Made by a program: the position numbers and the translations under genes
Notes under the pieces: generated by a model
The model's input: the letters and a program-made list of their open reading frames with translations, nothing else
Told to the model about the DNA's origin: nothing
Database searches by the model: none
Source of the DNA: Acidomonas methanolica
Lineage (GTDB): Bacteria; Pseudomonadota; Alphaproteobacteria; Acetobacterales; Acetobacteraceae
Length of the DNA: 64,000 nt
Assembly (NCBI RefSeq): GCF_004346035.1
Contig: NZ_SLZN01000009.1
Span: forward strand, 1 to 64,000
Direction of reading: 5' to 3'
In this document: positions 44,472 to 57,293 of the stretch, piece by piece
How positions within the stretch are numbered: the stretch's first letter is position 1
Layout of the letters: every line of letters begins with the position of its first letter

Positions 44472-45015
44472 CGAAGCCGGCATAATGCTGATCGTCCAGC
44501 GGCGGCAGATTCCACAGGCAGATGAGGTTGAGATACGGCGCGTAGAGGACGTTGCCCGCCGTCATCCAGATGACCGCCACCACCATCATCGGCAGATTGG
44601 CCAGCGTGAGATAGGCCGCCAGCCAGAGATCGTTCCTGATATGGCGCGTCCAGGGCATGACCTGCGCCCAGAGGAGCAGGCCGGAGAGCAGTTCCAGCCC
44701 CCCGATCGGGAGGGAGAAGAGGGCGTTGGCCAGGCCGCGCGACAGGATTTGCGGCATGCTGACCAGAATGCTCAGGCCGCCGAACACGGTCAGCGCGACC
44801 AGCGGATCATAGAGCCAGGACGAAGCGGGCGCGCGCCGCGCCGACGCTCCGGCGGCGAGAAGGAAGAGCGGCGGCGCGATCTGGTTCAGGGCCATCAGCG
44901 CCGCCGTATAGCTGACCATCGACGCCAGCGTGCTGGACAATTCCCACAGCGCGCCTCCGGTCGCGGCGAGTGCGCCCGACAGCGCCGCCAGACGAAGCAC
45001 GGTTGAAATCCTCAC
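44380..45015 (-). CDS. Cytochrome c oxidase assembly factor, CtaG (caa3) family
   Basis: A 211-residue membrane protein with six or seven helices. The CtaG_caa3 pattern is visible: NQIAPPLFLLAAG near the N-terminus, then LPIGGLELLSGLLLWAQVMPWTRH and LTLANLPMMVVAVIWMTAG, and LPPLDDQHYAGFVMLAAG at the C-terminal end. This family helps copper insertion into heme-copper oxidases. It overlaps the SCO stop by ATGA (45012-45015). It is the last gene of the oxidase operon; its 3' end overlaps the cyclase gene end by 92 bases. Confidence 0.85.
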   Translation of the reverse strand: MRISTVLRLAALSGALAATGGALWELSSTLASMVSYTAALMALNQIAPPLFLLAAGASARRAPASSWLYDPLVALTVFGGLSILVSMPQILSRGLANALFSLPIGGLELLSGLLLWAQVMPWTRHIRNDLWLAAYLTLANLPMMVVAVIWMTAGNVLYAPYLNLICLWNLPPLDDQHYAGFVMLAAGFPLQVMALWYLVEGLHAAHRKSAN

Positions 45016-45644
45016 TTCGCGCCCGGTTTGCCCATGTCGAGAACGTGACGAATATCCTGCGCGATCCCGAACGGATTATTGAGTTGCGTCGGCCCGTACA
45101 GCGCATGGACCATGCCGTTCGGCCCGACGAGGGTCAGCACGGAACTATGATCTATCATCCCGTTCATGGGTTCTTTCATGACCGTCACATGCCAGTCCCG
45201 CGTGACCTTGTCTATCTCCGGCTGCGTTCCGGTCAGGCCGATGGGCACGGGCGAGAAATGGGAGAGGAAGGTCCGCAGGGCGGGGCCGTCGTCATGCTGC
45301 GGGTCGAGCGTGACGAACAGAACCTTCACCCGCCCGCGATCCGCCCCCAGCTCCGCGAAGACCGGCCTGAGCGCCGCGAGCGTCATCGGGCAGACATCGG
45401 GGCAGTGGACATAGCCGAAATAGACCAGCACCGCCTGGCCTCTCAACGAGGAGAGCAGGAACGGCTGCCCTCTGTCATCCTGCAAATCGAGGGGGGGCGC
45501 CGAATGAGGGCGGACGGGGGTTCCCTCGAAGCTGTAGGCGCCCTCCCGACCCGCATAGAGCCATAGCCCTCCTCCGAGGAGAAGGGCCACGGCCAGCGCG
45601 CGGCCCACCGAGCGGAGGGCCTTGGCGCTCACCACGCCACCCAT
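45012..45644 (-). CDS. SCO1/SenC copper chaperone
   Basis: A 210-residue membrane-anchored thioredoxin-like protein that delivers copper to the CuA site of oxidase subunit II. The copper motif CPDVCP (YFGYVHCPDVCPMTLA) and the distal His (MIDHSSVLTLV) are present. One helix near the N-terminus (VGRALAVALLLGGGLWLYAG) anchors it. The start at 45644 (MGGVVSAKALR) overlaps the end of the subunit I gene by 16 bp; a GTG at 45632 is possible. Its stop overlaps the CtaG gene by four bases. Confidence 0.9.
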   Translation of the reverse strand: MGGVVSAKALRSVGRALAVALLLGGGLWLYAGREGAYSFEGTPVRPHSAPPLDLQDDRGQPFLLSSLRGQAVLVYFGYVHCPDVCPMTLAALRPVFAELGADRGRVKVLFVTLDPQHDDGPALRTFLSHFSPVPIGLTGTQPEIDKVTRDWHVTVMKEPMNGMIDHSSVLTLVGPNGMVHALYGPTQLNNPFGIAQDIRHVLDMGKPGAK

Positions 45645-47362
45645 CCCGGAGAGAGGGTCATATGACGCAGGAAGGACCAGAAGATCGGCACATAGGACAG
45701 CGCGCAGATGAGCGTCGCCACGCCGGTCCAGAACCATACGGGCTCCATGGCCCGTGCCAGGGAGGAGGTGTGCTCGGACGGAACCGCCGGGCGCTCGAGG
45801 CTGTAGCTTTCCGACCGTCCGAACGCGCGGGCGAACGGGATGGCCGGCGCCTCGATCTTCCGCCCGAAGAGCAGCGAGCCGAAGAACACGATGTAGAAGC
45901 AGATCATCGCGAGCCAGAGGATCACGCCGCCGATTCCGATCAGCGCCATGGGAATATGCGCCGCGCCGTAGAGCGTGTGGAACGCTTCATGCGGCAGGGC
46001 GGACACCCAGGCGCGGCGCGGGACGCCGTAGAGACCGGCCGTCTGCATCCCGATGCCGAAGGTGCTCATGCCGATGAACCACAGCCATGCCGCGGCCAGC
46101 GCCAGCCTGCGGCTGATCAGCGCGCGCCCGGTGAGATGCGGGATCAGCCAGAACGCCATGCCCATGAAGGTCATCGCGACGACGCTTCCCACGGTCATAT
46201 GGAAATGGCCCGGAATGAAGGTGGTGTTATGCACCACCGCATCGAGCTGCCACGAACCGTTGACCATCCCGGAGGCGCCGCCGATCACGAATGTCAGCAT
46301 GGACAGGACTTGCGCCGCGACGCTCGGGTTGCCCCAGGGAAGCGCTTTGAACCATCCGAGAATACCTTTCCCGCCACGCTTGCGTCCGGCGAACTCCAGC
46401 GTCAGCCCCATGGTGAATGCCGTGATCAGGCTGGGGAACGCCACCGACATGGTCAGCACCACGAGAATGCCGCGCCAGATCGGCGAGAAGCCGGGATCGG
46501 CGAACTGGTGATGCGACCCGACCGGCAGGGAGAAGATCAGCATCAGCACGAAGGTCAGGCGGCCCATGGCGTCCGAGGCGAGGCGGCCGCCGAGCTGGTT
46601 CGCGAGCAGGCCGTACCACGACACATAGGCAGGCATCAGCCAGAAATAGACGATCGGATGACCCGTCAGCCAGTAGAGCGTGCGGCTGATGGCCGGATCG
46701 ACCGTATGGATCAGGCCCAGCGACCAGGGGTCCATCTGGATCACGAGTTCCGTCATGATCCCGATCGTCGAGACGTCCCACATGAGCATCGTGATGAGGG
46801 CCATGTAGGTGACCAGCGGAGTCACCTCGCCGGGGCGCTGTTTCTTCCAGGCACTGCGCATCTGGAGCAGGATTGGCAGCGGCAGGGTGCTGCCCAGCCC
46901 GAGCGCGGTGAGGCCGAAATAGAAGAGCGGGCTGCCCTTCAGCGGCGGATAGAAGGTCCAGAGCACGTTCGAGCTGTTGTCGAACATGGCCGCGAGAACG
47001 AGTCCCGTGCCGATCAGCATGATCACGAAGCTGCCGCGCCAGAGAGTCATGTTCGGCGTGATGCCGAGTTCGCGCGCGGGCAGGTAGACGAGCAGGCCGC
47101 AGATGACGAAGAAGGTGAAGACGTAGCCGTTCATCACCCCGTGGATCGTCAGGCCCTGATAATAGCTCTGGAAAAACGGACGCAGGGCCGGATAGAGATT
47201 GTGGCCGCTATAGTTCAGCGCCTGCAACGGCCCGATCCCGGCTCCCAGCAGCAGGGCCGAAAAACCGACGACCAGGAAGGCGAGCATCATGCGCCGTTCC
47301 GCGGCGAGAACGTCGGGCCTCGGAACGGCCACGGCTGCCGGAGTGGAAAGATGGGCGCTCAT
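45629..47362 (-). CDS. ba3-like heme-copper oxidase subunit I
   Basis: The 577-residue protein has about 13 membrane helices and is a B-family oxidase (ba3 or Sox-like), not the A-family aa3. Heme and copper ligands are visible: YYQGLTIHGVMNGY (low-spin heme His), GHPIVYFWLMPAYVSWYG (CuB His with the cross-linked Tyr), GSHHQFADPGFSP (two His of CuB), and HNTTFIPGHFHMTVG (heme His pair). These enzymes reduce oxygen with high affinity. It overlaps subunit II by ATGA and leads into SCO with 16 bp overlap. Confidence 0.94.
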   Translation of the reverse strand: MSAHLSTPAAVAVPRPDVLAAERRMMLAFLVVGFSALLLGAGIGPLQALNYSGHNLYPALRPFFQSYYQGLTIHGVMNGYVFTFFVICGLLVYLPARELGITPNMTLWRGSFVIMLIGTGLVLAAMFDNSSNVLWTFYPPLKGSPLFYFGLTALGLGSTLPLPILLQMRSAWKKQRPGEVTPLVTYMALITMLMWDVSTIGIMTELVIQMDPWSLGLIHTVDPAISRTLYWLTGHPIVYFWLMPAYVSWYGLLANQLGGRLASDAMGRLTFVLMLIFSLPVGSHHQFADPGFSPIWRGILVVLTMSVAFPSLITAFTMGLTLEFAGRKRGGKGILGWFKALPWGNPSVAAQVLSMLTFVIGGASGMVNGSWQLDAVVHNTTFIPGHFHMTVGSVVAMTFMGMAFWLIPHLTGRALISRRLALAAAWLWFIGMSTFGIGMQTAGLYGVPRRAWVSALPHEAFHTLYGAAHIPMALIGIGGVILWLAMICFYIVFFGSLLFGRKIEAPAIPFARAFGRSESYSLERPAVPSEHTSSLARAMEPVWFWTGVATLICALSYVPIFWSFLRHMTLSPGWVAW

Positions 47363-47904
47363 TGGGCTGCCTCCGCTTCAGGCCGGGCAGGGTCCACGAT
47401 GATGGGCGACGCCATCGCGTGGTGCATCAGCCCGCAATATTCGTTACAGATGATGTAATATGTCCCGGGCTTGCGGAACACGTGCGACACGAGGCCGATC
47501 TCGCCGGGCACGGCCGTGAGGTTGATGTCCGTCCCCTGCACCTCGAAGCCATGAAGCACATCGGCGCTCGTCACCCGGAACGTGATCTTCGCACCCTGCT
47601 TCACATGAATCGGCCCGGGAGCCCAGCGCCACATGCGGGCCACCAGCGACACGGTGTAGGCGTTCGGCCCGGTCTCGACCGCCACGCCTTCCGGCTGCGC
47701 CTGATCCGTGGTCATTTGCCCGATAACGGGGGTTTGCCCGCCCGATTTCGTGACCAGGTTATAGTCGATCACCACGTAGAGCATGGCGATGATGGTCAAC
47801 ACCGTCAGCAGAATCAGGACGATGAACACCCAGATGCGCTCTTGCCGTTCGCCCGCTTCGTAGAAGCGGCGCTCGGACGGCGTCATGGACGAAAGATCCG
47901 ACAT
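47359..47904 (-). CDS. ba3-like oxidase subunit II (CuA domain)
   Basis: A 181-residue protein with one membrane helix (RIWVFIVLILLTVLTIIAMLYVV) and a C-terminal cupredoxin. The CuA ligands are present: the His in VLHGFEVQGT and the cluster CNEYCGLMHHAM (two Cys, Glu, His, Met). This is the site that accepts electrons from cytochrome c. GGAGGAGAG lies before the ATG. It overlaps subunit I by four bases (ATGA). Confidence 0.93.
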   Translation of the reverse strand: MSDLSSMTPSERRFYEAGERQERIWVFIVLILLTVLTIIAMLYVVIDYNLVTKSGGQTPVIGQMTTDQAQPEGVAVETGPNAYTVSLVARMWRWAPGPIHVKQGAKITFRVTSADVLHGFEVQGTDINLTAVPGEIGLVSHVFRKPGTYYIICNEYCGLMHHAMASPIIVDPARPEAEAAQ

Positions 47905-47919
47905 TATCTCTCCTCCCCC

Positions 47920-48063
47920 TCACGCGCGATGCAGGAAAATGAGCGACACCACGCTCCACGCGAATATGACGTAGGCCAGCAGAATGCCGCCGATCACCCA
48001 CGTTCCGACGGGGCGCGCGGCCCTCTCGTCCTCGGCCGCAAAAGGCCCGTTCTCATTGCTCAT
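47920..48063 (-). CDS. 47-residue one-helix oxidase subunit (IIa-like)
   Basis: A short frame from the ATG at 48061-48063 to TGA at 47920-47922. The product has a polar N-terminus (MSNENGPFAAEDERAARPVG) and one helix (TWVIGGILLAYVIFAWSVVS) ending LIFLHRA. ba3-type oxidases carry a single-helix subunit IIa, and this gene sits just upstream of subunit II, so that is its likely role. Too short for common gene cut-offs and easily missed. Confidence 0.7.
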   Translation of the reverse strand: MSNENGPFAAEDERAARPVGTWVIGGILLAYVIFAWSVVSLIFLHRA

Positions 48064-48109
48064 AACAATACCTCGTCATGCATCACTGGCGCTCTCATCG
48101 GGGCCTTCT

Positions 48110-48802
48110 TCACTGGGGCTTCGCTGCGGCGAAGCCGAGCGTGTGGATATAGGCGGCCAGAGCCCGGATCTCGTCCGGCGTGAGAGACTTGGCCTCCATC
48201 AGCATGAGGGCGCTGTCCGGATCTCGTTTCGCTCCCGTATGCCAGATCGAAAGTTGCTCGATCATATAAGCCTGGGACTGCCCGGCGAGTGCCGGAAACA
48301 TCTTTCCGAGCCCGGCGCCGGTCGGCCCGTGGCATCCGGCGCATGCCATCACCCGCTGGGCCGGCTTGCCCTTTTTGTACAGCGCCTCGCCCTGGCTCAC
48401 GAGAGCCGGAGCGGGGGCGATCGACGAATCATAGGCCGGTGCCGGCAGCGACGCGTAATAGGCGGCGACGTTCGCCCGCTGCTCCGGCGTCAGGGCGGCC
48501 GCGAATTCCTTCATGAAGACATTCGCCCGCACGCCGCTGGCGAAATAGCCGAGCTGCTTCTCCAAATAGGAGGCCGGCAGTCCCGCAAGACGCGGAATGC
48601 CGCCGATCGCCTGGCCGGAGCCGTCCGCCATATGGCACGAAGCGCAGACGGGATGTCCCGGCCTGACACCCTGTTCAGCAATGATCTTGCCCGCCGCTAC
48701 GTCTCCGTCCGCCCGAGCGGAGCCCGGGAGGCCGGCCCCCGCAGCGCAACAGAGCAGCAAGGCAGTCCATGCTTTTGCCTTTCCCGTTATTTTTTGTCGC
48801 AT
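48110..48802 (-). CDS. Diheme cytochrome c4-like protein
   Basis: A 230-residue periplasmic protein with signal (TAWTALLLCCAAGAGLPGSARA-like) and two tandem cytochrome c domains: CASCH in HPVCASCHMADGSGQAIGG and CAGCH in VMACAGCHGPTGAGLGKMFP. Cytochrome c4 proteins carry electrons to oxidases. The start at 48802 is set by GGAGCG upstream and by the signal length. First gene of the oxidase operon on the minus strand, so it is the likely donor to CuA. Confidence 0.88.
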   Translation of the reverse strand: MRQKITGKAKAWTALLLCCAAGAGLPGSARADGDVAAGKIIAEQGVRPGHPVCASCHMADGSGQAIGGIPRLAGLPASYLEKQLGYFASGVRANVFMKEFAAALTPEQRANVAAYYASLPAPAYDSSIAPAPALVSQGEALYKKGKPAQRVMACAGCHGPTGAGLGKMFPALAGQSQAYMIEQLSIWHTGAKRDPDSALMLMEAKSLTPDEIRALAAYIHTLGFAAAKPQ

Positions 48803-49009
48803 GACGCTCCCGAACACCCTCTCTTCCGTCATCCACGGAATTTCAAATACTTCAACCGACGGACTGCGATCAGCCGGAAGAGGCCCTCCGAGCCTCATAT
48901 GACCGGAAGGATATGCCTCTCCGTCGACTGCTGGCCACAATTTCTCGCCTTACCGGAAAAGCGCTTGTCGGCCGGCGAGGTATGACTTGATATAATTCAT
49001 TTTTCCCCT

Positions 49010-49357: not shown

Positions 49358-51118
49358 ATGTCGATTCCCAGATTCGCCGGGAAATCAGCCCGGCCCTCTC
49401 GCCAAGCAGGGCTTTCCGTTCGAAGCCTGATGCTGGGATGCCTCGCCGGCGTGAGCTTCGCCGCGACCTCGACCGCCATGGCTCAGCCCGCCGAACCCTA
49501 CAAGCCGGTTACGACGCAAGACCTCCTGCACGCAGCACAGAGCGACGACTGGCTCATGGTGCGCCACGACTACAATTCGAGCGACTATTCGCCCCTCAAG
49601 CAGATCACGACCAAGAACGTCACGGATCTCAAGCCCGTCTGGGATTTTGAGACGGGTCTGAAGAGCGGTCATGAATCCCCCGCCATCGTCAATGGCGACT
49701 ATATGTTCATCACCGGGCCGAGGGATGTGCTTTTCGCCTTCCAGGCCTCGACCGGAAAGCTGCTCTGGAAATATGAGCATGATCTTTCCCATGTCGGCCT
49801 CAAGACGGTTTGCTGCGACGTGGTCAATCGCGGCGTGGCCCTTTACGGTGACGCCGTCTACATGGCGACGCTCGACAACTACGTCGTCGCGCTGGACGCC
49901 AAGACGGGCAAGGTGCTGTGGAAGAACCAGCTCGAGGTGCCGGATCTCGGCTATGCGATGACGCTGGCGCCGCTCGTGGTGAACGGCAAGGTCATCGTCG
50001 GTGAATCCGGTGGCGAATATGGCGCGCGCGCCTTCATTCAGGCTCTGGATGCGAAGACCGGCAGCAAGGTGTGGCGCTTCAACACCATTCCGGCGCCGGA
50101 CGAGCCCGGCGGCGACACCTGGCCGAAGGGCGCCTACAAGACCGGCGGCGGCGCCGCCTGGCTGACGGGCAGCTATGATCCGGCGACCAACTCCCTGATC
50201 TGGGGCGTGGGCAATCCCGGTCCGTGGCTCGCCAAGCTCCGTCCCGGCAACAATCTCTATACGGACAGCGTGCTTTCGCTCGATCCCGATACGGGCAAGC
50301 TGAAGTGGTACTATCAGTACACCACGCATGACACCTGGGATTATGACGGCACCAACGAGCCCGTGCTGACGGACATCACCTACAAGGGCAAGACCTACAA
50401 GGCGCTGGTGAGCGCCAGCCGCAACGGCTGGTTCTATGCGATCAACCGCAATGACGGCAAATTGATCTACGCCGTGCCCTTCGCTCACGCCACGTCGGTC
50501 AAGGGGTTTGACGCGCAGGGCCACAACATCACCGATCCCGCGCTGTATCCGGATATCGACAAGGAAATCTTCACCTGCCCGAGCTTCCTCGGCGGCAAGA
50601 ACTGGTGGCCGATTTCTGTCGATCCGCAGACGAAATACGCCTATGTGCCGACGTTCTACAGCTGCATGACCATGAAGGGGACCTCGGTCGCCTATCGTGC
50701 GGGGCTGCCGTTCCTGGGCGAAACCTTCCTCGTCAAGCATGATCCGGAGCATCCGGATAACTGGGGCGCGGTGCAGGCGATCAATCTGTCCACCGGCAAG
50801 CAGGCATGGGTTTTCCCGTCCGAGCTGCCCTGGAACGGTGGCATGCTGACCACGGCCGGCGGTCTCCTCTTCTCCGGAAGCGCGGACGGCTATCTCTATG
50901 CCTTCAACGCGAAGACCGGAAAGGTGCTCTGGAAGAGCCCGCAACTTTCTTCCGGCGTCGTGGCGCCGCCGAGCACGTTCAAAGTTGGTGACAAGCAATA
51001 CGTGGCCATTTACGCTGGTTGGGGTGGAGGCACTCCGATCTGGGGCGGTGAAGCCGCGAAAGAACCTCGCGTCCGGCACATTCCGCTGGGTGGCCACCTC
51101 TACGTCTTTGCTTTGTGA
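49358..51118 (+). CDS. PQQ-dependent alcohol dehydrogenase with lanthanide signature
   Basis: A 586-residue periplasmic quinoprotein that oxidises alcohols and passes electrons to a cytochrome c. It has the vicinal disulfide CC (152-153), metal ligands Glu 220 (GESGGE) and Asn 286 (GVGNPGPW), and the catalytic segment HDTWDYDGTNE with Asp 328 plus the extra Asp 330. That D-x-D is the mark of lanthanide-dependent XoxF/PedH enzymes; Ca-dependent MxaF/ExaA have Ala or Ser at the second position. It lacks a fused cytochrome c domain, unlike acetic acid bacterial AdhA. It is more distant from XoxF than the second enzyme. The signal follows a basic N-terminus (to about residue 42). Confidence 0.88.
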   Translation: MSIPRFAGKSARPSRQAGLSVRSLMLGCLAGVSFAATSTAMAQPAEPYKPVTTQDLLHAAQSDDWLMVRHDYNSSDYSPLKQITTKNVTDLKPVWDFETGLKSGHESPAIVNGDYMFITGPRDVLFAFQASTGKLLWKYEHDLSHVGLKTVCCDVVNRGVALYGDAVYMATLDNYVVALDAKTGKVLWKNQLEVPDLGYAMTLAPLVVNGKVIVGESGGEYGARAFIQALDAKTGSKVWRFNTIPAPDEPGGDTWPKGAYKTGGGAAWLTGSYDPATNSLIWGVGNPGPWLAKLRPGNNLYTDSVLSLDPDTGKLKWYYQYTTHDTWDYDGTNEPVLTDITYKGKTYKALVSASRNGWFYAINRNDGKLIYAVPFAHATSVKGFDAQGHNITDPALYPDIDKEIFTCPSFLGGKNWWPISVDPQTKYAYVPTFYSCMTMKGTSVAYRAGLPFLGETFLVKHDPEHPDNWGAVQAINLSTGKQAWVFPSELPWNGGMLTTAGGLLFSGSADGYLYAFNAKTGKVLWKSPQLSSGVVAPPSTFKVGDKQYVAIYAGWGGGTPIWGGEAAKEPRVRHIPLGGHLYVFAL

Positions 51119-51131
51119 AAGAAAAAATGAC

Positions 51132-52277
51132 ATGGCTGAAAAGACTATTCGTTATGGTCTTCTCGCCCTGACGGCTCTGGGAGGCTTCGCGGCCTCCCAG
51201 TCCAATGCGTCGGCGGCGATGTCCTTCTGCGTCGACAAGAGCAGCCCCTCTCACGCCATGGATGAGCGTGTTGCGAAGGCTGTAGCCGGCAGCGAAAACA
51301 TGACCACCCGGCTTTATCAGTTCGACGGCAGCGCGGACGGGGATGATGACGGGTACGACGCCAGCAACTTCAAGAAGCTCGCGGCGGAGAAGTGCAGCCT
51401 CGTGCTCGGCTTCCCGGTCGATACGTCCGCCAAGGAACCGGCGATTCCCGAAGGGACGCATGCTTCTCTTCCCTATGCACGCACCGGCTTCGTGCTGGTG
51501 ACGCCGCGCGGCAGCGAGGCGCGTGCGCTGAGTGATCTGCCCCGCGGGTCGGAAGTGGCCGTGACCAATCTCACGGCGCCGAATCTCTATTTCGAGAAGC
51601 ACCCGAATGTGCGTGCCAGCGTGTATCCGACGGATGCCGAGGCGATGAACGATCTCGTGGCGCACAAGGTGCCGGCGGCGATGATCTGGCAGGCCAGCGC
51701 GGTGAACTTCCTCGCCGCCAAAGGGCAGGACAGGAACTACTGTATCCATGCGCTGAACGAACCGCATGCCCAGTGGAACGTCGTCGCCCTCTATGGCGCG
51801 TCAGGCGCGCAGGCCGCGCAGGCGTTCAATGCCGCCGTGACCACTCTGCGGCATTCGGGCAAGCTCGCAAGCGTCGTGGCGCCTTATGCCGAGACACCGA
51901 AGAGCGGCTTCATCCTTGCGGCCGATGAGACGTCCTCCAAGCCGGCCCTCTTCACGGAGGACCAGGCCAAGGCAGGCGCAAAGGAATACGCCGATAATTG
52001 CTCGCAGTGCCATGGCGACGATCTCAGCGGCATGGCGGGGCCGGCGTTGAAAGGTCCGAATTTCGCCTCGGCCAAGGCGAATTTTCATGTGAGCGACATC
52101 TACGCGATCGTCTCCAAGAACATGCCCGCGACCAACCCGGGCAGCCTGACGACCGATCAGTACGTGAACATCATGGCCTTCCTGCTCCAGCAAAACGGGA
52201 TGCCCGCAGGCTCCACCAAGTTGACGGCGGATATTGCCACGAAGTCGCAGGTGCCGCTGATCTATAGCGGCAAGTAA
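51132..52277 (+). CDS. Fusion of a XoxJ-like binding domain and a cytochrome c
   Basis: The 381-residue protein starts at ATG 51132, 13 bases after the dehydrogenase stop. After a signal (about 1-29), residues 30-265 form a periplasmic binding-protein (SBP_bac_3/XoxJ-like) domain: MSFCVDKSSPSHAMDERVAKA, CSLVLGFPVDTS, GFVLVTPRG. Residues 270-381 form a class I cytochrome c with CSQCH (290-294) and a likely Met ligand at 331 (SKNMPATNPGSLT). In known xox and mxa clusters these are two separate proteins, J and G. Joining them suggests that the activator or partner and the electron acceptor act as one unit for the adjacent dehydrogenase. A strong terminator follows. Confidence 0.8.
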   Translation: MAEKTIRYGLLALTALGGFAASQSNASAAMSFCVDKSSPSHAMDERVAKAVAGSENMTTRLYQFDGSADGDDDGYDASNFKKLAAEKCSLVLGFPVDTSAKEPAIPEGTHASLPYARTGFVLVTPRGSEARALSDLPRGSEVAVTNLTAPNLYFEKHPNVRASVYPTDAEAMNDLVAHKVPAAMIWQASAVNFLAAKGQDRNYCIHALNEPHAQWNVVALYGASGAQAAQAFNAAVTTLRHSGKLASVVAPYAETPKSGFILAADETSSKPALFTEDQAKAGAKEYADNCSQCHGDDLSGMAGPALKGPNFASAKANFHVSDIYAIVSKNMPATNPGSLTTDQYVNIMAFLLQQNGMPAGSTKLTADIATKSQVPLIYSGK

Positions 52278-52296
52278 CCTTCGCCTTTTACGAAGA

Positions 52297-52332
52297 CCCC
52301 TGCCGGGCAGACCGCCGGGCAGGGGTTTTTTT
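52297..52332 (+). terminator. Intrinsic terminator after the fusion gene
   Basis: CCCCTGCC (52297-52304) pairs with GGCAGGGG (52318-52325) and is followed directly by seven T (52326-52332). It ends the PQQ alcohol dehydrogenase operon and separates it from the xoxF unit. Confidence 0.9.
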
Positions 52333-52793: not shown

Positions 52794-53374
52794 GGCGGGC
52801 TGCGCAACTGCGTGCGTGTCGGCGGCCCTTCACTCCTGCCGGGTCGCGCCACGCCGCAGAGCGCTTGCCGGCAGTCGAACAGGCTGGCGCCGGGACAGCG
52901 CGCTTCGCATCACTCACGTTACGTTATGAGAAAAGTGCAGATATATTTATTAATTGATATGGGTGACGAAGCGATGTCGAATGAGCGCCGTGAAGACCTC
53001 AATCGCGAGTCGGATTCGCCATCTTTTACTTTGGTGGTGAATCCCATCATTAATATAATGATGTTGTTAATCGACAGAAAAATAATGACACATAACGCGT
53101 GAGTGGCTCTGTCGAATACGCTCATGGGTAAATATCGCATTTTTGTGTGATCAAGGGTCACGCATATGTGCGGGGGTATACTCCAGGGAAGTTTGTGAGT
53201 CAGCCTGATTAACTCATTGTTTTTACGTATTTTAAGGGATATTTCCCTCGGAAATCCACCTATTGATTTATCACGTGAATTGCGTGACCAGTGGCTGGCC
53301 GGGTCGAGCCGGTGCCCATGGGAAACACGAGTTCGACCGATCCGGACAGAAAAATGTTTCGGAGTAAAGTTCAA
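52794..53374. other. Long AT-rich xoxF promoter region
   Basis: Between the transposase remnant and xoxF there are 580 bases without a firm gene. From about 52920 on, base composition shifts to AT-rich. Small palindromes include AGGGATATTTCCCT near 53234 and TCACG/CGTGA near 53271-53287. The latter half probably carries the xoxF promoter and leader. One small frame (52926-53102) is listed separately. Confidence 0.5.
52926..53102 (+). CDS. Possible small protein, 58 aa
   Basis: The frame from ATG 52926 to a TGA at 53100-53102 encodes MRKVQIYLLIDMGDEAM, an acidic stretch (SNERREDLNRESDS) and a hydrophobic tail (LVVNPIINIMMLLIDRKIM). It is AT-rich and unlike its neighbours in codon use. It might be a small membrane-linked protein near xoxF, or simply AT-rich leader DNA. 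No ribosome site is visible. I do not recognise it. Confidence 0.2.
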   Translation: MRKVQIYLLIDMGDEAMSNERREDLNRESDSPSFTLVVNPIINIMMLLIDRKIMTHNA

Positions 53375-55204
53375 ATGGACACAAAAAGAAATACTTGCCA
53401 CAGCAAGTCAATGCTGGTCGCGGCAAGTAGCCTGGCCGCCCTTCTCCTCGTGAGCGGCAGCGTGCGCACGAGCCATGCGGCTGACGTCTCTCTGGCTGGC
53501 ATGCAGGAGAATGGCGACAATTGGAACATGCCGACAGGCACGTACAATAATTGGCGTCACAGCTCGCTGAGCCAGATCAACGCCTCGAATGTGAAGAACC
53601 TTCAGGTTGCCTGGACGATGTCCACGGGAACCCTTCGCGGGCTTGAGGGACAGCCGCTGGTCATCGGCAATATGATGTACTACGAGACGTCATATCCGAA
53701 CTACGTCTACGCCGTGGATCTCGATCATCCCGATCAGATCGCATGGAAGTTCATGCCGCCCCCGAATGAGGACGCGCCGCCTGTCGCATGTTGTGACGTT
53801 GTCAATCGCGGTCCGGCCTATGCGGACGGCATCGTCATCGCGAATGCGCTCGACGGCATCGTCTATGCGTTGGATGCGAAGACCGGCGAAGTGAAGTGGA
53901 CGGCGAAGAATGCTGATCCCAAGGTCGGCTCCACGATGACCGATGCGCCGATGATCGTCGGTGACAAAGTCATCGTCGGTGTGTCCGGCGGCGAGTTCGG
54001 TGTGCGCGGCTATCTCACGGCCTATGATCTGCACAGCGGCCAGGAAATCTGGCGCGCTTACAGCGAAGGACCGGACAGCGACCTCAAGTTCGATCCGGAA
54101 AAGACGCTCAACGGTGCGACGGGCAGCCCGGTCGGCGCGGATTCGAGCCTGAAGACCTGGAGCGGCGATCAGTGGAAGGCCGGCGGCGGCGCCACCTGGG
54201 GCTGGTATTCTTACGATCCCAAGCTGAACCTCGTCTATTACGGGATCGGCAACCCGGGCACCTGGAACCCGACGCAGCGCCCCGGCGACAATGCGTGGTC
54301 GATGTCGATCGTTGCGCGTGACGCGGATACGGGCGTTGCGAAATGGGTCTATCAGATGACTCCGCATGACGGCTGGGACTATGACGGCGTCAATGAATCG
54401 CTGCTGATCGATGCCGAGGAAAACGGGAGAAAGGTTCCCGCGCTCATCCATTTCGATCGCAACGGTTTCGCCTATCTGCTGAATCGCGAGAATGGCCACC
54501 CGATCCGGATCAGCAAGTATGATTCGTCGGTGAACTGGGCGACGGGCATCGACCCGAAGACCTGGCGTCCGGTCGTCGATCCAACGAAGATGACGACGCA
54601 GGACAAGAACGTTACCGGCATCTGCCCGTCCTCGCAGGGCGACAAGGACGAGCAGCCGATCTCGTATGATCCGAAGACCCGGCTCGTCTATGCGCCGCTG
54701 AACCATCTGTGCATGAGCTACCAGGCCTTCGCCGTCAAATACATGGCGGGCTTCCCCTTTGTCGGCGCCATCGTGAACATGGAACCTGGACCGGGCGGCA
54801 ATCGCGGTCGTTTCATCGCGTTTGATCCCCAGACCGGCAAGACGAAGTGGGAGATCAAGGACACGTTCCAGGATTGGAGCGGCGCCCTGACCACCGATGG
54901 CGGGCTTGCCTTCTACGGCACGCTGGACGGAAAGCTGCGTGCGGTGGACGTCAAGACGGGCAAAATTCTGTACGAGTTCAAGTGCCCGTCCGGCATCATC
55001 GGCAATCCGATCACCTATATGCACAACGGCCGTCAATACGTCGCGGTGCTGTCCGGTGTCGGCGGTTGGGCGGCCATCGGCATGGCCAACAACCTGCACA
55101 AGAGCACCGATGGTCTGGGTGGCGCAGGTCTGACGGCCGCGTTGCCGAACTATACGAACCTCGGCGGAACGCTGATGGTTTTTGCCCTGCCGCAGAAGGC
55201 GTGA
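53375..55204 (+). CDS. xoxF: XoxF-type lanthanide-dependent methanol dehydrogenase
   Basis: A 609-residue periplasmic quinoprotein that oxidises methanol to formaldehyde (or formate) with PQQ and a lanthanide. After the signal (MDTKRNTCHSKSMLVAASSL and on) the mature protein has ENGDNWNMPTGTYNNWRHSS, the vicinal CC (139-140), Glu 207 (GVSGGEFG), Asn 293 (GIGNPGTW) and HDGWDYDGVNE with catalytic Asp 335 and the lanthanide Asp 337. These fit XoxF well, and the gene is followed by xoxJ and a cytochrome, the usual xox order. The ATG at 53375 has GGAG 10 bases upstream; starts at 53354 and 53291 are less likely. Confidence 0.93.
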   Translation: MDTKRNTCHSKSMLVAASSLAALLLVSGSVRTSHAADVSLAGMQENGDNWNMPTGTYNNWRHSSLSQINASNVKNLQVAWTMSTGTLRGLEGQPLVIGNMMYYETSYPNYVYAVDLDHPDQIAWKFMPPPNEDAPPVACCDVVNRGPAYADGIVIANALDGIVYALDAKTGEVKWTAKNADPKVGSTMTDAPMIVGDKVIVGVSGGEFGVRGYLTAYDLHSGQEIWRAYSEGPDSDLKFDPEKTLNGATGSPVGADSSLKTWSGDQWKAGGGATWGWYSYDPKLNLVYYGIGNPGTWNPTQRPGDNAWSMSIVARDADTGVAKWVYQMTPHDGWDYDGVNESLLIDAEENGRKVPALIHFDRNGFAYLLNRENGHPIRISKYDSSVNWATGIDPKTWRPVVDPTKMTTQDKNVTGICPSSQGDKDEQPISYDPKTRLVYAPLNHLCMSYQAFAVKYMAGFPFVGAIVNMEPGPGGNRGRFIAFDPQTGKTKWEIKDTFQDWSGALTTDGGLAFYGTLDGKLRAVDVKTGKILYEFKCPSGIIGNPITYMHNGRQYVAVLSGVGGWAAIGMANNLHKSTDGLGGAGLTAALPNYTNLGGTLMVFALPQKA

Positions 55205-55209
55205 CCGAT

Positions 55210-55247
55210 CGCGCCTCTCCTGACGCTTCGGCGTCACGAGGGGCGCG
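55210..55247 (+). promoter_or_regulatory. Long hairpin between xoxF and xoxJ
   Basis: The stem (CGCGCC...TGACGC, 55210-55226) pairs with GCGTCA...GGCGCG (55231-55247) around a TTCG tetraloop, with two mismatches in 17 pairs. With no T-run behind it, it may protect xoxF mRNA and reduce read-through, giving more XoxF than XoxJ and cytochrome. Confidence 0.55.
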
Positions 55248-55278
55248 TTCCCGTCGTAATTCATTTCGGAGGTGTATC

Positions 55279-56181
55279 ATGCGCCCGCGTTTTTTTTCAA
55301 GGCTTTTGCTTCTGGGCACCGCGCTGATCGGCGTCGGGACGGCAGGCTCCGCCTATGCCGCCCGGGCGGTCAGCACGAAAGCCGGAAGCACGCCGGAGAT
55401 CGGTGTGGCGCCGGGGGAGGATTCGGCCGCGCTGCGTGTCTGCGCGGATCCGAATTATCTCCCTTTCTCCAACAAGGCTGGCGAGGGATTTGAAAACAAG
55501 ATTGCGGAAATCGTCGCGAAGGCGATGGGACGAAAGCTCGTTTATTATTGGTTGAGCGAACGCGGACCCGGCGGATATCCCAACTTTCTGGCCGATGCAT
55601 TGGACGTGGGGAAATGCGATGTGGTGATGAGCCTTCCCGCGGGTGATCCCGAGGAGGGTGGCACGGACCCATATTATGAATCGGCATATGTGTTCATCTC
55701 GAAGAAAGCCGATACACGTGCCCAGGCGGTCACGGCCATGTCGTCGCCGGCCCTGCGTGCGATGAAGATCGGCGTGCAGGATGACACGACGCCCGTTTCC
55801 GCGATCCAGATGCTCGGTCTGGTGGATAATGCCGTGTCGTTCGATGTCGCGGACGATCCGAATGTCTCACCCAGAATACTTCTCGACGCCGTGAAGAGCG
55901 GCCAGGTGGATATCGTTGTCACATGGCAACCGGCGATCGGGGCGTTTCTGAAGGACTATCCCGATCTGACGATCCGGGAGGTGCCGCCCGAATTCTATGG
56001 GCCCGGCCTGCCTCAGGTCACATATGCCTACAAGATCGCCATGGGAGTCCGGAAAAAGGACACAGGACTTCGTGATGCGCTTAACACGGTCATCAACGGT
56101 CATAAACAGGAATTGAGCGATGCACTCGCCTCGTCCGGGGTACGCTTTTACAGCGGAAAGGGCGCGATTCCCTATAATTGA
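55279..56181 (+). CDS. xoxJ: XoxJ, periplasmic binding protein of the xox cluster
   Basis: A 300-residue periplasmic solute-binding-fold protein that is thought to activate or assist XoxF. It has a signal (FFSRLLLLGTALIGVGTAGSAYA), then the typical ALRVCADPNYLPFSNKAGEGFENKIAEIVAKAMGRKLVYYW and GKCDVVMSLPAGDP, and later YAYKIAMGVRKKD near the C-terminus. GGAGG lies 6 bases before the ATG at 55279. It is the free-standing version of the domain that is fused to cytochrome c at 51132-52277. Confidence 0.9.
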   Translation: MRPRFFSRLLLLGTALIGVGTAGSAYAARAVSTKAGSTPEIGVAPGEDSAALRVCADPNYLPFSNKAGEGFENKIAEIVAKAMGRKLVYYWLSERGPGGYPNFLADALDVGKCDVVMSLPAGDPEEGGTDPYYESAYVFISKKADTRAQAVTAMSSPALRAMKIGVQDDTTPVSAIQMLGLVDNAVSFDVADDPNVSPRILLDAVKSGQVDIVVTWQPAIGAFLKDYPDLTIREVPPEFYGPGLPQVTYAYKIAMGVRKKDTGLRDALNTVINGHKQELSDALASSGVRFYSGKGAIPYN

Positions 56182-56220
56182 CCGATGAATATTCTGGTCA
56201 AAAAAACGAAAGAACAGACC

Positions 56221-56958
56221 ATGACAAACGAGAAGAGATTCCTGATTTTGCCCGCTATCCTAGGCGCTGCGCTGATGACGGCCACTCCTGCCTCGGCCCA
56301 GTCGGGCGGGGAGGCGATCGCCAAAGGAAGCGACTGCTTTTCCTGCCATGCGGTGGATACGAAAGTGGTTGGTCCCGCCTTCAAGGATGTGGCCGCCAAA
56401 TTCGCCGGTGATGCATCGGCCGTCAACACGTTGGTCGACGCGATCGACAAGGGACATGTCGGGACATGGGGAAGTATTCCCATGCCGCCGCATCCCAGTC
56501 TCAGCGCGGATCAGACGAAGCAGATCGTCACCTGGATTCTGAGCCTGAAATCAGGTTCGGCTGCGTCCGGCGGGCAGGCGGCGCCCGAAGCCAGCAAGCA
56601 AGCCTATACCTATACGGTTGACGGGAAGAAGGTCACGGTCGGTTTTCCGATTTTTCAGGATGGAAGCACGACCAAAGTCACCAAGGCCGTTTTCCATGGC
56701 TTCGAGACATATAATTCCTACTGCTTCCGTTGCCACGGCGAGGATGCGGTGGGCGGTTCCTATGCGCCGAACCTCCGCAACTCTCTGAGCAACGGCATGA
56801 CGGAACAGGAATTCACCAGCGTCGCCATGGTCGGCCGCAAGGACAAGGGCATGCCAAGCTGGGCGGGTTTCTTCACTCCTGAGCAGATTCACGAGATCTA
56901 CGCTTATGTCAAAGCCCGCTCCGTCGGGGCGGTTGGCACAGGTACACCCCAGGAGTAA
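56221..56958 (+). CDS. Diheme XoxG-like cytochrome c
   Basis: The likely electron acceptor of XoxF. Counting from MTNEKR at 56221, a signal ends near ASAQ (27); domain one is a small cytochrome with CFSCH (39-43) and a Met at 88 (PMPPHPSL); a linker rich in Ala/Gly/Gln follows; domain two (130-235) has CFRCH (168-172) and a Met at 211 (KGMPSWAG), and resembles XoxG/cytochrome cL in its VFHGFETYNSYCFRCHGED. Usual XoxG has only one heme, so an extra c551-like domain has been added. An upstream in-frame ATG at 56185 is possible. Confidence 0.82.
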   Translation: MTNEKRFLILPAILGAALMTATPASAQSGGEAIAKGSDCFSCHAVDTKVVGPAFKDVAAKFAGDASAVNTLVDAIDKGHVGTWGSIPMPPHPSLSADQTKQIVTWILSLKSGSAASGGQAAPEASKQAYTYTVDGKKVTVGFPIFQDGSTTKVTKAVFHGFETYNSYCFRCHGEDAVGGSYAPNLRNSLSNGMTEQEFTSVAMVGRKDKGMPSWAGFFTPEQIHEIYAYVKARSVGAVGTGTPQE

Positions 56959-57017: not shown

Positions 57018-57293
57018 TTGCCGCATTCGCCTGATGAAAAGAAGCGCGTTCTCGCGCGTGTCCGGCGTGTGCGGGGCCAGATCGACGCACTTGAACGCGC
57101 GCTTGAAGTTGGCAGCGAATGTGGCCCGGTCCTTCAGCAGATCGCCGCAGTTCGGGGAGCCATCAACGGGTTGATGGCGGGGGTATTGGAAAGCCACCTG
57201 CGGGAGGAGTTTCTTCATCTCACCAAGGATGTGTCTGAAACGGATTCCTCGATCAACGAGGTCGTTTCGCTCGTGCGCTCCTATTTCCGTTGA
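57018..57293 (+). CDS. frmR: FrmR-type formaldehyde-sensing repressor
   Basis: A 91-residue all-helical repressor of the CsoR/RcnR/FrmR family that releases DNA when formaldehyde crosslinks the N-terminal Pro 2 to Cys 35. Pro 2, Cys 35 and His 60 are present (MPHSPDEKKRVLARVRRVRGQ; GSECGPVLQQIAAVRGA; LESHLREEF). The start must be the TTG at 57018: it puts Pro at position 2, and AAGGGAG sits 7 bases before it. It lies 59 bp behind the xox genes. No frmA/frmB is next to it, so the xox cluster itself may be its target. Confidence 0.9.
   Translation: MPHSPDEKKRVLARVRRVRGQIDALERALEVGSECGPVLQQIAAVRGAINGLMAGVLESHLREEFLHLTKDVSETDSSINEVVSLVRSYFR

Follow-up and report, generated by a model that had tools for sequence, protein, structure and literature searches.

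The 64,000-nucleotide window analyzed here (positions 1 to 64,000 of contig NZ_SLZN01000009.1 of Acidomonas methanolica; coordinates refer to this whole stretch) contains, at 51132..52277 on the forward strand, one ATG-initiated open reading frame encoding 381 amino acids without an internal stop. It starts 13 bases past the stop (51118) of a PQQ alcohol dehydrogenase gene (ADH1; 49358..51118, forward strand) and is followed by a hairpin (52292..52330, forward strand; RNA fold -31.1 kcal/mol, z -6.0): dehydrogenase and fusion make up a tight two-gene unit, an operon, closed by a strong terminator. Promoter matches in a scan were no more frequent than chance. The order of parts in the protein is signal peptide, type II binding-protein domain, flexible linker and c-type cytochrome. 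The linker (51906..51956, forward strand), recognized by low pLDDT at residues 259-267 and by linker lengths, is Ala/Pro-rich in homologues and spans 5-56 residues. An initial annotation, made from the letters alone, had seen in this 381-residue frame a binding domain joined to a cytochrome c right behind a PQQ alcohol dehydrogenase, and the intact reading frame bears this out. A frameshift or sequencing error, which that annotation raised for the region near 51940-51960, is ruled out: 41 homologues are fused in other genomes, and frame and codon-position composition are regular.

The C-terminal part is a class I c-type cytochrome domain (51957..52274, forward strand). Residues 278-353 match PF13442 (6e-10) and PF00034 (6e-5), both above cut-offs; CSQCH occupies residues 290-294, just where it had first been noticed, and Met331 is the likely axial ligand. 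All 37 aligned family members keep both CxxCH and Met331. Weak similarity to XoxG/MoxG cytochrome cL is found in all 37 as well, and the domain is, like cytochrome cL, a single-haem class I cytochrome beside its dehydrogenase; unlike cytochrome cL, it falls far short of the cut-off of the MoxG (cL) model TIGR03872 (26.4 bits for the window protein vs 147.8).

The N-terminal domain (51204..51905, forward strand; residues about 25-258) is of another kind. Residues 1-265 of the window protein match nothing in Pfam or NCBIfam, and TIGR03871 and TIGR03870 do not match the window protein itself, which does not reach the curated MoxJ-like cut-off; of the two Pfam families that the initial annotation had expected, PF00034 is matched and PF00497 is not. 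Its relatives are more forthcoming: 31 of 37 aligned family members match the MoxJ-like model TIGR03871 weakly (best E 8e-8), and one fused homologue, L102, exceeds the PF00497 cut-off (27.6 vs 26.4 bits). An AlphaFold2 model of the fusion (pLDDT 85.5, linker 259-267 disordered) permits comparison by structure alignment (VIA-align): residues 25-258 align with family-3 (type II) binding proteins, among them MxaJ (5sv6; Z 16.3, 3.7 Å, 206 residues), XoxJ (6onp; Z 16.1, 3.1 Å, 191 residues and, at 22%, the highest identity among the matches listed) and 9ism_B (Z 14.9). This alignment of the predicted model rules out the absence of a binding-protein fold from residues 30-265; the domain originally delimited by those residues stands, with limits nearer 25-258. 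Ordinary amino-acid binding proteins score equally well against the model (top Z 18.7), so that fold alone is no proof of membership in the XoxJ/MxaJ family. What ties the domain to XoxJ and MxaJ is a Cys pair (C33 and C88) together with W186, found in 23 of 23 fused rows of the alignment and in 17-18 of 18 canonical MoxJ-like rows; the one amino-acid-binding row included as a control is without the Cys pair and the Trp, and has Asp where fused domains have Trp. Trp-x-Pro is completed by Pro in 20 of 23 fused rows, and by Ala in the window protein. Fold, Cys pair, Trp-x-Pro and a PQQ dehydrogenase neighbor are thus shared with XoxJ/MxaJ (5sv6, 6onp, 9ism), but the latter are stand-alone proteins, and in the J tree they form a separate and well-supported canonical clade outside of which the fused J domain falls. 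"XoxJ-like", as the domain was first described, is accurate for fold, Cys pair and Trp, and inaccurate for the clade: the domain is a divergent XoxJ/MxaJ relative that Pfam misses.

A further difference from the canonical J proteins is an acidic, Gly-rich loop (residues 65-76, DGSADGDDDGYD; 51324..51359, forward strand) which model and alignment place between strand 2 and helix 2 of the J domain and which, by homology, would lie at the rim of the cleft. Net acidity of at least 3 within an 8-residue stretch at the loop characterizes 38 of 43 measurable fused domains, among them that of a Caballeronia fusion of 27% identity; in canonical J proteins, and in the second group of fusions described below, the corresponding loop is short and on average basic. 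Is the GDDDG loop an EF-hand? Pfam EF-hand models do not match it, a PROSITE-type EF-hand pattern occurs in 0 of 37 family members, and that identity is accordingly unsupported. The notion that the loop binds Ca2+ or Ln3+, so that a single protein would serve a lanthanide-type alcohol dehydrogenase both as loader or sensor of the metal and as electron acceptor, is very improbable. It also seems unlikely that the J domain has kept a small-molecule ligand (PQQ, an alcohol or a metal ion) for delivery or sensing: the two-lobed fold is intact in the predicted model, and the conserved acidic loop at the putative cleft rim has a charge opposite to that of canonical J, but the failure of that loop to resemble an EF-hand by model or by pattern weighs against the idea, as does the replacement of the Asp that serves the amino-acid ligand in family-3 proteins by Trp, just as in MoxJ-like proteins.

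ADH1 (TIGR03075, 583 bits) has as its nearest solved relative PedH (6zcw, 405 bits), a lanthanide-dependent ethanol dehydrogenase; the best-scoring lanthanide methanol dehydrogenase is 4mae (346 bits). Its HDTWDYDG aligns with HDGWDFDG of PedH, which contains the metal-site residues, the extra Asp included, and its CCDVVNRG aligns with CCDVINRG. By the second Asp (DxD) and the adjacent cysteines ADH1 would be of the lanthanide type. The xox/mxa framing of the initial annotation is right in that the neighbor is a PQQ dehydrogenase and wrong in that ADH1, nearest PedH, is neither XoxF nor MxaF. In Pseudomonas, PedH is likewise accompanied by a cytochrome and a J-like protein in one cluster (PedH-PedF-PedG; PMC12997753); there, PedF and PedG come as two proteins, and a PedF model matches the window cytochrome weakly (16 bits). 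XoxF as the fusion's partner is ruled out by the affinity of ADH1 to PedH and by the presence of a genuine XoxF in the next cluster downstream (53291..56958, forward strand; assigned by Pfam, NCBIfam and nearest PDB entry). That cluster provides, within the same window, a contrast to the fusion: its XoxF (53291-55204; nearest PDB entry 6oc5, 724 bits) is followed by a J-like protein of its own, unfused (from about 55276 to 56181), and by a di-haem cytochrome (56185-56958). The gene that follows (57018-57293, forward strand) encodes the formaldehyde-responsive repressor FrmR, and the set may possibly serve methanol oxidation with formaldehyde sensing. The genome holds four TIGR03075 dehydrogenases above cut-off, and the PQQ synthesis gene pqqE.

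How widespread is this architecture? The window protein as sole query of genome contigs retrieved no match; an alignment query succeeded. A database scan, as had been proposed at the outset, was run by alignment over the genomes of 84,980 species and brought to light 41 homologues with both domains in one frame; they are about 37-61% identical and belong to other alpha- and gammaproteobacteria: Gluconacetobacter, Acetobacter nitrogenifigens and sacchari, Lichenicoccus, Rhodanobacter, Dyella, Pseudoxanthomonas, Solimonas, Nevskia, Mangrovitalea, Beijerinckia mobilis and uncultured relatives. In all 39 fused loci with enough upstream DNA, the gene directly upstream encodes a dehydrogenase of the same type as ADH1 (778-1012 bits, other PQQ dehydrogenases scoring roughly 90-420), so that the joining of a J-like domain to a c-type cytochrome, which the initial annotation had proposed for one locus, proves to be linked with one PQQ dehydrogenase clade. 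Fusions of lower similarity (27-29% identity over 90%) reside on replicons of the Burkholderiales (Burkholderia, Caballeronia, Paraburkholderia). The gene order in Caballeronia is pqqA, dehydrogenase, fusion, aldehyde dehydrogenase; its fusion is annotated only as a c-type cytochrome, which makes the J half invisible in the annotation.

A count independent of the fusion is obtained with the dehydrogenase as query. Among 299 genomes of the same family it finds 18 dehydrogenases: 11 accompanied by a fusion, six by split partners and one by a cytochrome only. At the same threshold such a dehydrogenase occurs in just 2 genomes of a sample of 398 from the phylum, one of them being the window's own, and both have the fusion. 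In the six split cases a J gene is immediately followed by a cytochrome gene, matching the domain order of the fusion. In the dehydrogenase tree (a quick search with SH-aLRT support only) the split cases group as a single clade inside the fused ones, a pattern that could come from a single fission or from repeated fusion. Three members of the dehydrogenase clade (L071, L072 and L073) have only a cytochrome adjacent, with a separate J-like gene on each locus; J may accordingly be dispensable, or supplied from elsewhere.

The canonical J proteins inspected do not share this propensity. TIGR03871 proteins were surveyed in 398 genomes; in none of the 30 high-scoring loci inspected does a CxxCH follow in the same frame, which rules out fusions among these canonical proteins. 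Four low-scoring loci (L150-L153), together with L094 (5592-6710), L095 (2452-3684) and L096 (10049-11335), present a second fusion. It resembles the first in having J and then cytochrome in one frame and, in L094-L096, in lying directly behind a PQQ dehydrogenase; it differs in its PedF-like cytochrome, in the other type of that dehydrogenase, and in J domains that form a separate clade in the J tree. On the strength of that separate clade, Proteobacteria most likely joined J to a cytochrome on at least two occasions, the Methylacidiphilum case of the literature apart. Might the joining be functionally neutral, neighboring genes having run together by chance to yield what still acts as a separate J and a separate cytochrome? 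The split gene pairs, J then cytochrome behind the dehydrogenase (L114-L119), and the persistence of both states are what such an origin would leave behind. Yet fusions outnumber split pairs and persist in alpha-, beta- and gammaproteobacteria alike, and the joining of J and cytochrome most likely happened a second time independently; neutrality is an improbable explanation.

The premise that J and G are separate proteins in xox and mxa clusters, from which the initial annotation set out, does not hold generally: cytochrome cGJ of Methylacidiphilum is a XoxG-XoxJ fusion and the reported electron acceptor of its XoxF (PMC6688271, PMC8498564, PMC5623727). Cytochrome cGJ (of Methylacidiphilum fumariolicum SolV and relatives) and the window fusion both combine, in a single polypeptide, a J-like part with a c-type cytochrome, and both are encoded beside a lanthanide-type PQQ dehydrogenase. 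To judge by its name and description (PMC6688271), cytochrome cGJ has G preceding a truncated J, is accompanied by an additional separate xoxJ and has XoxF as its partner; in the window fusion a full-length J precedes the cytochrome, the partner is PedH-like, and the two-gene unit contains no separate J gene, so that it does not fit the cGJ pattern. A literature search, not an exhaustive one, found no paper on fusions of the window's lineage. J-cytochrome fusion as such is, then, already known from what those reports describe of cGJ. The window fusion belongs to a new, widespread and separate lineage, distinct by its order (taking that of cGJ from its naming in the literature), its full-length J, its partner enzyme and its wide distribution.

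What J proteins do for PQQ dehydrogenases is still debated, with regulation, maturation and modulation of the contact with cytochrome all under consideration. We think it probable that the fusion serves the adjacent PedH-like dehydrogenase as its dedicated partner in the periplasm, a J plus G pair in one piece. Much as MxaJ binds MxaF, the J domain would recognize the dehydrogenase and assist in loading its cofactors; the tethered cytochrome would take electrons from reduced PQQ. This proposal of activation or docking through J and electron acceptance through the cytochrome draws on three precedents: in Methylorubrum grown in methanol medium with La, deletion of xoxG or of xoxJ has the same effect as loss of xoxF1 together with xoxF2 (PMC7391723); J proteins have been proposed to hold the apo-enzyme for insertion of PQQ and metal (PMC12997753); and a solved structure shows MxaF in complex with MxaJ (9ism, one of the structure-alignment matches above).

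The tether of activator to acceptor, and whatever benefit it may confer, deserve separate thought. A chaperone acts once per enzyme and an electron acceptor at every turnover; a tether is therefore not obviously needed for activation. Repeated docking, which an acceptor does need, would be helped by one, and it is conceivable, though we doubt it, that the J domain is "merely" a docking module that holds the cytochrome on the dehydrogenase and has no part in cofactor loading. Strict pairing with one dehydrogenase clade and a flexible linker are in keeping with such a module, and for Methylacidiphilum there has been speculation that the J part contributes to the binding of XoxG:J to the dehydrogenase (PMC6688271). 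On the other hand, relatives with the cytochrome alone imply that docking does not strictly depend on J, and stand-alone MxaJ binds MxaF (complex 9ism). The fused, split and J-less forms that accompany a single dehydrogenase clade constitute a comparison series by which activation can be separated from electron acceptance, the two functions that the partner reading assigns to one protein.

Where would the electrons go? The usual description of acetic acid bacteria has them depend on ubiquinol oxidases. Upstream of ADH1 and divergent from it lies an oxidase cassette (45012..48940, reverse strand; assigned by Pfam and by the arrangement in relatives) that encodes SCO1, a ba3-type COX1, COX2 and a di-haem cytochrome c. 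COX1 matches the Thermus ba3 oxidase (523 bits), and the motif CNEYCGLMHHAM of COX2 may be read as a CuA site, a reading that would make the enzyme a cytochrome c oxidase. All nine Gluconacetobacter/Acetobacter loci keep this cassette beside the dehydrogenase, and the other loci do not; nine genomes of these genera thus have a ba3-type cytochrome c oxidase cassette despite the customary picture. In Acidomonas methanolica, the fusion would hand its electrons to the neighboring di-haem cytochrome and thence to the ba3-type oxidase. Its placement beside such a cassette, in a relative of the acetic acid bacteria, suggests a complete periplasmic chain from alcohol to oxygen that bypasses quinone.

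Other combinations of the same parts came to light along the way. A related C-terminal cytochrome is joined to an N-terminal domain in proteins of about 400-430 amino acids (L098 7059-8267, L099 6321-7544, L013 622-1908, L016 1411-2646); that domain matched no family in the two that were scanned, L098 and L099, and a PQQ dehydrogenase adjoins both. In L158 (2456-4207) and L159 (2309-4105) a MoxJ-like domain is followed in one frame by ankyrin repeats (584-599 amino acids), and in an acidobacterial locus (L076 8364-9344) a multihaem domain of the NapC/NirT type is followed, also in one frame, by a related mono-haem cytochrome domain.
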